A stretch of 64,000 nucleotides of DNA, from assembly GCF_000373925.1 (NCBI RefSeq), contig NZ_KB892707.1, forward strand, positions 124,001-188,000, written 5' to 3'. Origin of the DNA: Actinopolymorpha alba DSM 45243 (lineage in GTDB: Bacteria > Actinomycetota > Actinomycetes > Propionibacteriales > Actinopolymorphaceae). Positions 10,011 to 48,132 of the stretch are shown here, one piece after another. The translations under genes were made by a program, and so were the position numbers. Within the stretch, counting starts at the first letter, position 1, and every line of letters starts with the position of its first letter. A model generated the notes under the pieces. That model worked only from the letters and a program-made list of their open reading frames with translations. It ran no database searches and was not told the origin of the DNA.

Positions 10011-10104
10011 CCGGAATGATCACGTTTACGTGGTCATTGCCTGCCTCACACGGTGTCGGTGCCATGCAAGGCGGGGAATGACCACGTAAACGTGATCATT
10101 CCGG
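10011..10104. repeat. Paired-palindrome element, copy 1 (86-bp core)
   Basis: Two 24-bp imperfect palindromes lie at 10015-10038 and 10077-10100. The first is AATGATCACGT, TT, ACGTGGTCATT; the second is its exact reverse complement. With 4 flanking bases each side the inverted repeat is perfect over 28 bp (10011-10038 with 10077-10104). The 38-bp spacer holds a further partial dyad (GGTGTCGGTGCC). The element fills the space between two convergent genes. Copies with the same architecture lie at 26448-26533 and 32124-32209. Confidence 0.85.
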
Positions 10105-18260: not shown

Positions 18261-18340
18261 CTCGGGAGAATCGATCGGCTCCCACGGCCATTGCCCTTTT
18301 GGTCTTGCTCGCAGCCCCGGTGCTTGGTTGGGGAGGGAGT

Positions 18341-18442
18341 TGATCACGTCTACGTGGTCATTCAGGGGGCTGGCCTCCACCGGAAAGCCTGATCTACAGG
18401 ACACGCCCCAGCCTCACGGCGGCGCGGGGTGTCTGACAGACA
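18341..18442. repeat. Solitary degenerate palindrome of the 24-bp family, plus a hairpin and a 13-bp dyad
   Basis: The 361 bp between alaS and the DJ-1 gene contain no gene. TGATCACGTC followed by TACGTGGTCATT (18341-18362) matches the 24-bp palindrome family but has lost the two leading bases. No partner lies at the 62-bp spacing seen in intact copies. An imperfect hairpin (GACACGCCCC at 18400-18409, GGGGTGTC at 18426-18433) and a perfect dyad TGTCTGACAGACA (18430-18442) follow. The hairpin could end alaS transcription, and the dyad could be an operator for the next gene. Confidence 0.55.
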
Positions 18443-26447: not shown

Positions 26448-26533
26448 AATGATCACGTATACGTGGTCATTGCATGCCTCACATGGTGTCGACACCACGT
26501 GAAGCTGGTAATGACCACGTATACGTGATCATT
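26448..26533. repeat. Paired-palindrome element, copy 2
   Basis: Two 24-bp palindromes at 26448-26471 (AATGATCACGT, AT, ACGTGGTCATT) and 26510-26533 are exact reverse complements across 38 bp. The spacer matches that of copy 1 at 27 of 38 positions and contains the perfect dyad GGTGTCGACACC. The element lies between the convergent response-regulator remnant and the CocE gene. Confidence 0.85.
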
Positions 26534-32123: not shown

Positions 32124-32209
32124 AATGATCACGTAAACGTGGTCATTCGCCACCAGGCAAGGTGAATTTGCCGCGTGTCGTGGGGAATGACCACGTAAAC
32201 GTGATCATT
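32124..32209. repeat. Paired-palindrome element, copy 3
   Basis: Palindromes at 32124-32147 (AATGATCACGT, AA, ACGTGGTCATT) and 32186-32209 (AATGACCACGT, AA, ACGTGATCATT) are reverse complements except for the central two bases. The spacer is again exactly 38 bp but has a sequence unlike copies 1 and 2. The element lies between convergent genes, 10 bp past the ABC stop and 22 bp before the oxidase stop. Confidence 0.85.
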
Positions 32210-48108: not shown

Positions 48109-48132
48109 AATGACCACGTATACGTGGTCATT
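48109..48132. repeat. Solitary perfect 24-bp palindrome of the paired-palindrome family
   Basis: AATGACCACGT, AT, ACGTGGTCATT is a perfect palindrome. Reading leftward on the minus strand, the adjoining spacer begins GCATGCCT as in copy 2. The partner expected 62 bp away (48047-48070) is no longer recognisable. It lies between the convergent glycosyltransferase and map genes. Confidence 0.7.

Follow-up and report, generated by a model that had tools for sequence, protein, structure and literature searches.

BIMEs of enterobacteria are mosaics of palindromic units at transcript ends, some of them binding gyrase or IHF, and MITEs such as NEMIS and ERIC are non-autonomous elements of ~80-130 bp with inverted ends. 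REPINs are REP doublets forming hairpins, with compensatory changes reported in the hairpin spacers and with singlets expected to be decayed relative to doublets (Bertels and Rainey 2011, PMC3116915, where BIMEs are also named). The REPIN literature consulted links them to RAYT transposases. REPINs persist in E. coli strains that have no RAYT (PMC8049555), and CGTC REPs are said to lack a dedicated transposase (Di Nocera 2013, PMC3733652).

Of the known kinds, the 86-bp unit analysed here comes nearest to REPINs, resembling them in its two inverted conserved ends, its spacer of free sequence and fixed length, its long hairpin, its extragenic position and high copy number, and the occurrence of singles next to pairs. 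It differs from them in that its ends are near-perfect self-palindromes, its singles are as conserved as its pairs (5/8 exact in the unselected sample described below; small numbers), its spacer lacks compensatory changes, and no associated RAYT was found, for which last reason it is filed here as REPIN-like and not as a REPIN. With the GTAG- and CGTC-tagged REPs (PMC3733652) it shares the character of a short, abundant extragenic palindrome, and with the CGTC REPs also the lack of a dedicated transposase, none having been found for the unit; neither tag occurs at the palindrome ends in the listed copies, whose flanks and joints were read directly. Like BIMEs, the unit places palindromes at transcript ends, but it has another sequence and one dominant fixed-length form. 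The NEMIS and ERIC MITEs are similar in being non-autonomous, in their inverted ends and in size, whereas for the 86-bp unit no target duplication was seen and no parent insertion sequence was found.

Anatomy and fixed geometry of the unit

The sequence-only reading of the window (the whole 64,000-nucleotide stretch) described three 86-bp copies, and exact inverted pairs of a 24-mer were indeed located at 10015/10077, 26448/26510 and 32124/32186, each with a 38-bp spacer and with GATC at the outer and GGTC at the inner side, as had been stated. This 24-bp palindrome, termed A (AATGATCACGTWWACGTGGTCATT), matched the window 15 times at <=3 mismatches, strands being counted separately, vs 0 in 100 shuffles. 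The earlier account did not include the copies at 18339 and 48109, both of them unpaired. The features are:

10015..10038, + strand: palindrome A, copy 1 left, exact match
10039..10076, no strand: 38-bp spacer B, copy 1, of the B family analysed
10077..10100, - strand: palindrome A', copy 1 right, inverted, exact match
18339..18362, + strand: single A, 2 mismatches, without partner
26448..26471, + strand: palindrome A, copy 2 left, exact match; element absent in same-genus relatives
26472..26509, no strand: 38-bp spacer B, copy 2
26510..26533, - strand: palindrome A', copy 2 right, exact match
32124..32147, + strand: palindrome A, copy 3 left, exact match; element absent in same-genus relatives
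32148..32185, no strand: 38-bp spacer, copy 3, of a second (minority) type with AATT at the dyad and unchanged length
32186..32209, - strand: palindrome A', copy 3 right, exact match
48109..48132, no strand: single A of the symmetric GACC/GGTC form, without partner at 62 bp

The unit is laid out as A (24), joint (4), B (30), joint (4) and A' (24), with dyads at 12.5, 43.5 and 74.5 and therefore in 31-bp steps. The 30-bp core B is dyad-symmetric in its purine/pyrimidine pattern, with dyad-symmetric invariant bases, and its copies, once oriented, share the pattern GCYTYRCRYGGYRYCNRYRCCRYGYRARGC. In some pairs the inner half of one A is swapped for a GTGGCGCGT-like sequence.

The earlier observation was right but understated, as the source genome (G000; 8.0 Mb, 127 contigs) contains ~200 palindrome A sites, most of them in head-to-head pairs, the reversed-pattern control giving 0. 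Inverted A pairs searched genome-wide with a free gap of 30-50 bp numbered 36, all of them (36/36) with the 38-bp gap of the 86-bp unit, and among partnered A sites at the sampled loci 97/98 showed a 62-bp centre spacing. The proposed selection on geometry is supported, a single length being kept despite ~30% spacer divergence, which consists mainly of transitions with almost no length change.

The sample comprised 795 kb fetched unselected and 60 loci nearly all picked from exact-match lists, together holding 54 full pairs and 31 singles, with 117/129 A sites exact, a figure inflated by the choice of loci. The unselected 795 kb held 25 elements and 37 A sites with 0 (27), 1 (9) or 2 (1) mismatches, and almost no sites lay between these classes and the chance level, bar arms of known pairs. 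Words of the element were the top dispersed 14-mers in contig C1 and in the sample of the second carrier genome (G007), and were not among the top dispersed words in samples of two non-carriers. Seven singles form part of a longer repeat that starts with A-B and continues differently; a longer dispersed repeat in which one A and B precede GGTGCTAGCCATGTGAAGTACCCGCCAGGTGTACACAATGTGAGACAACCCCCTGGATTGA was observed at L091 (12220 and 19008), L161, L166, L167, L176 and L187.

On both strands the whole 86-mer is predicted to form a single long hairpin (-59 to -77 kcal/mol, z -7.5 to -12.5). Core B carries 183 transitions vs 15 transversions; compensatory pairing was not found in it, its stem pairing was below the shuffled expectation, and A-C mispairs were about as frequent as G-T, indicating that conservation of an RNA stem fails to explain the spacer or the geometry. 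The unit is thus a clean case of a fixed element length that outlasts spacer divergence without an RNA-pairing constraint. A decay of B from an all-CpG ancestor, strong at first sight, was rejected since oriented copies give an ordinary consensus; the genome showed no CpG depletion.

The inverted A arms co-vary at their central bases above shuffles, and the first three flanking bases form matching (complementary) trinucleotides in 23/54 pairs vs 5.9 by shuffle and in 16/31 singles vs 3.0. This complementarity ends after three bases in the pairs, and the flanks were accordingly rejected as pre-existing terminators. In our reading, the flank complementarity and the arm co-variation reflect the way in which the unit is generated or inserts, without proving a mechanism.

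Distribution, gain and placement

G000 and G007 were the only genomes to match among 397 of the order, with 186 and 167 exact sites of the degenerate palindrome, respectively; G007 belongs to another genus of the same family and has its chromosome in one contig. The palindrome was absent from the five same-genus genomes searched, and 149 other genomes across the phylum gave no match. In G007 the palindrome has the symmetrically changed form AATGATCATGTWWACATGATCATT, and its copies are mostly A with a related B, one of them (L060) retaining the 86-bp layout. Many of the G007 copies (L054-L067) are preceded by a common upstream stretch, CTCGATCTTTCGTCCGGCGGTGGGTTCGACCGG. Plasmid and phage records contained no palindrome match, one viral match (L077) having been rejected as a chance match within a phage polymerase gene; Rfam gave 0 matches above the gathering score over the window, and 11-mers occurred in the literature text only in 13 papers with unrelated titles. 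The statement that no named element has this sequence therefore holds for the Rfam, plasmid and phage records and literature text searched.

At the copy-2 and copy-3 loci, gene order is kept in the same-genus genomes (~74% identity) and the element is absent. At these two loci, respectively, the gaps are ~50 and ~25 nt in the relatives (one of 68 nt) vs 247 and 148 nt between the matched blocks in G000. These short, element-free gaps, compared by length at two loci, suggest that the element was probably gained in G000; a single locus cannot separate gain in G000 from loss in the relatives, and loss in all five is unlikely.

Genes were called with a home-made gene finder, and all 84 classified copies (84/84) were intergenic. 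Convergent gaps held 35/84 (42%) vs 18% expected from intergenic length, codirectional gaps 43/84 vs 56% of intergenic length, and divergent gaps 6/84 (7%) vs 26% expected, with the nearest stop codon mostly <=60 bases from the element. All three window copies do lie between convergent genes, as claimed, but genome-wide this setting is a preference and not a rule. The neighbouring genes are ordinary, encoding an ABC transporter and an SDR at copy 1, a LuxR-type regulator and an S15 peptidase at copy 2, and an ABC transporter and an FMN-dependent dehydrogenase at copy 3. An even distribution along the chromosome, like that of matS-like systems, was rejected, placement along the G007 genome being not different from random.

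Origin and possible function

The 86-bp family is a real, high-copy, lineage-restricted repeat of mobile type, as evidenced by the inverted A pair at a fixed distance, the ~200 intergenic sites, the absence in relatives at two loci and the presence in two genera of one family; its description as a REP-like or MITE-like dispersed unit is borne out by this copy number, the apparent insertion relative to relatives and the REPIN-like doublet architecture. We consider it fairly probable that the unit is a REPIN-type mobile repeat, small and non-autonomous. A dimeric protein would recognise palindrome A and copy the unit whole, probably via a form with the two arms paired, since arm variants co-vary and the three flanking bases tend to be complementary. 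Copying of the whole unit through recognition of A would constrain A and the length and let B drift by transitions. Insertions would survive mainly just past stop codons, where the cell would tolerate a transcribed 86-nt hairpin, which might terminate or protect transcripts; the unit may thus also act as a hairpin where transcripts end. Against this reading, neither transposition nor an empty site at base level was seen, searches with NF047646 and PF01797 revealed no mobiliser, and the conservation of singles is close to that of pairs, unlike the decayed singlets expected of REPINs.

The RAYT profile NF047646 gave no match above cut-off in G000 or G007, no Y1_Tnp (PF01797) was present in the complete G007 genome, Y1 transposases were also absent from most relatives, and no repeat-flanked RAYT (Y1) gene was found in either carrier. 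In G000 the Y1 genes appear to be of IS200 type and have no flanking A pairs, and a RAYT link was rejected, only one of these genes having an A site within ~1.5 kb and G007 carrying no Y1 gene. One G007 element cluster, read by eye as a lead to a mobiliser, held no recognisable transposase. As REPINs persist in E. coli strains lacking RAYT, the absence of RAYT alone is no proof of another mobiliser; high copy number, REPIN architecture and sharply conserved ends, together with the absence of any Y1 transposase from the complete genome of one carrier, point to a different mobiliser or else to a strong function in the host.

The same E. coli strains lend some weight to the idea that the units are true REPINs persisting as relics after a recent loss of RAYT from both genomes, which is nonetheless improbable given the absence of a GTAG end, the lack of Y1 transposases in G007 and most relatives, and the near-zero decay of A, which argues against old relics. 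We also regard it as improbable that the unit is a MITE belonging to an ordinary DDE insertion sequence whose terminal inverted repeat is A: the inverted ends, fixed length and high copy number would suit it, but no direct repeat (target-site duplication) was seen in the flanks of the copies read, and the intervals examined between close copies contain host genes and no transposases, on which ground A was also rejected as the ends of an IS.

Two further readings assign the unit a host role. It is conceivable, if doubtful, that the units form a family of bidirectional intrinsic terminators, spread and retained for termination at gene ends, as the predicted folding on both strands, the proximity to stop codons and the depletion in divergent gaps would suggest; at copy 1, however, the hairpin is not followed by a T-run, the spacer shows no compensatory change and about equal G-T and A-C mispairs, and the 24-base sequence identity and fixed length are left unexplained. 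A protein-binding site is plausible from the near invariance of A in singles and pairs and the dyad symmetry of B. We hold it unlikely, though, that A and B serve as operators for a nucleoid or regulatory protein, bound as three dimers on one DNA face in 31-bp (three-turn) steps and selected site by site as in gyrase- or IHF-binding BIMEs. The nearly invariant A, the invariant bases and purine/pyrimidine pattern of B, the dyad spacing and the related B after A in the other genus favour such an array, whereas its absence from five same-genus genomes, the unrelated gene contexts and the random-like placement in G007 speak against it.

A second inverted-pair family

Word counting also led to a second, REPIN-like family, TGATCATGAAG - 27 or 28 - CTTCATGATCA, whose exact copies number 21 in G000, 104 in G007 and 2 in G003, with none in the other five relatives. 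RNA covariation was looked for and is absent here too. None of the listed sites lies inside the window, those on contig C1 of G000 being at 101597, 101678, 189449, 208369, 226337 and 332686 (L083, L087, L088, L089, L094). Its outer part, TGATCAYG repeated in inverted order, is the half-site of A, and the sharing of this half-site by two families that occur together in both carriers suggests that one protein may recognise both. We tentatively consider an actinobacterial REPIN-like superfamily, with two families built on TGATCAYG, that might be mobilised by an enzyme other than Y1/RAYT or held by a dedicated DNA-bridging protein on three evenly phased palindromes. In a 200-kb sample of genome G002 (L222-L231), the parS-like GTTTCACGTGAAAC was a top dispersed palindromic word.
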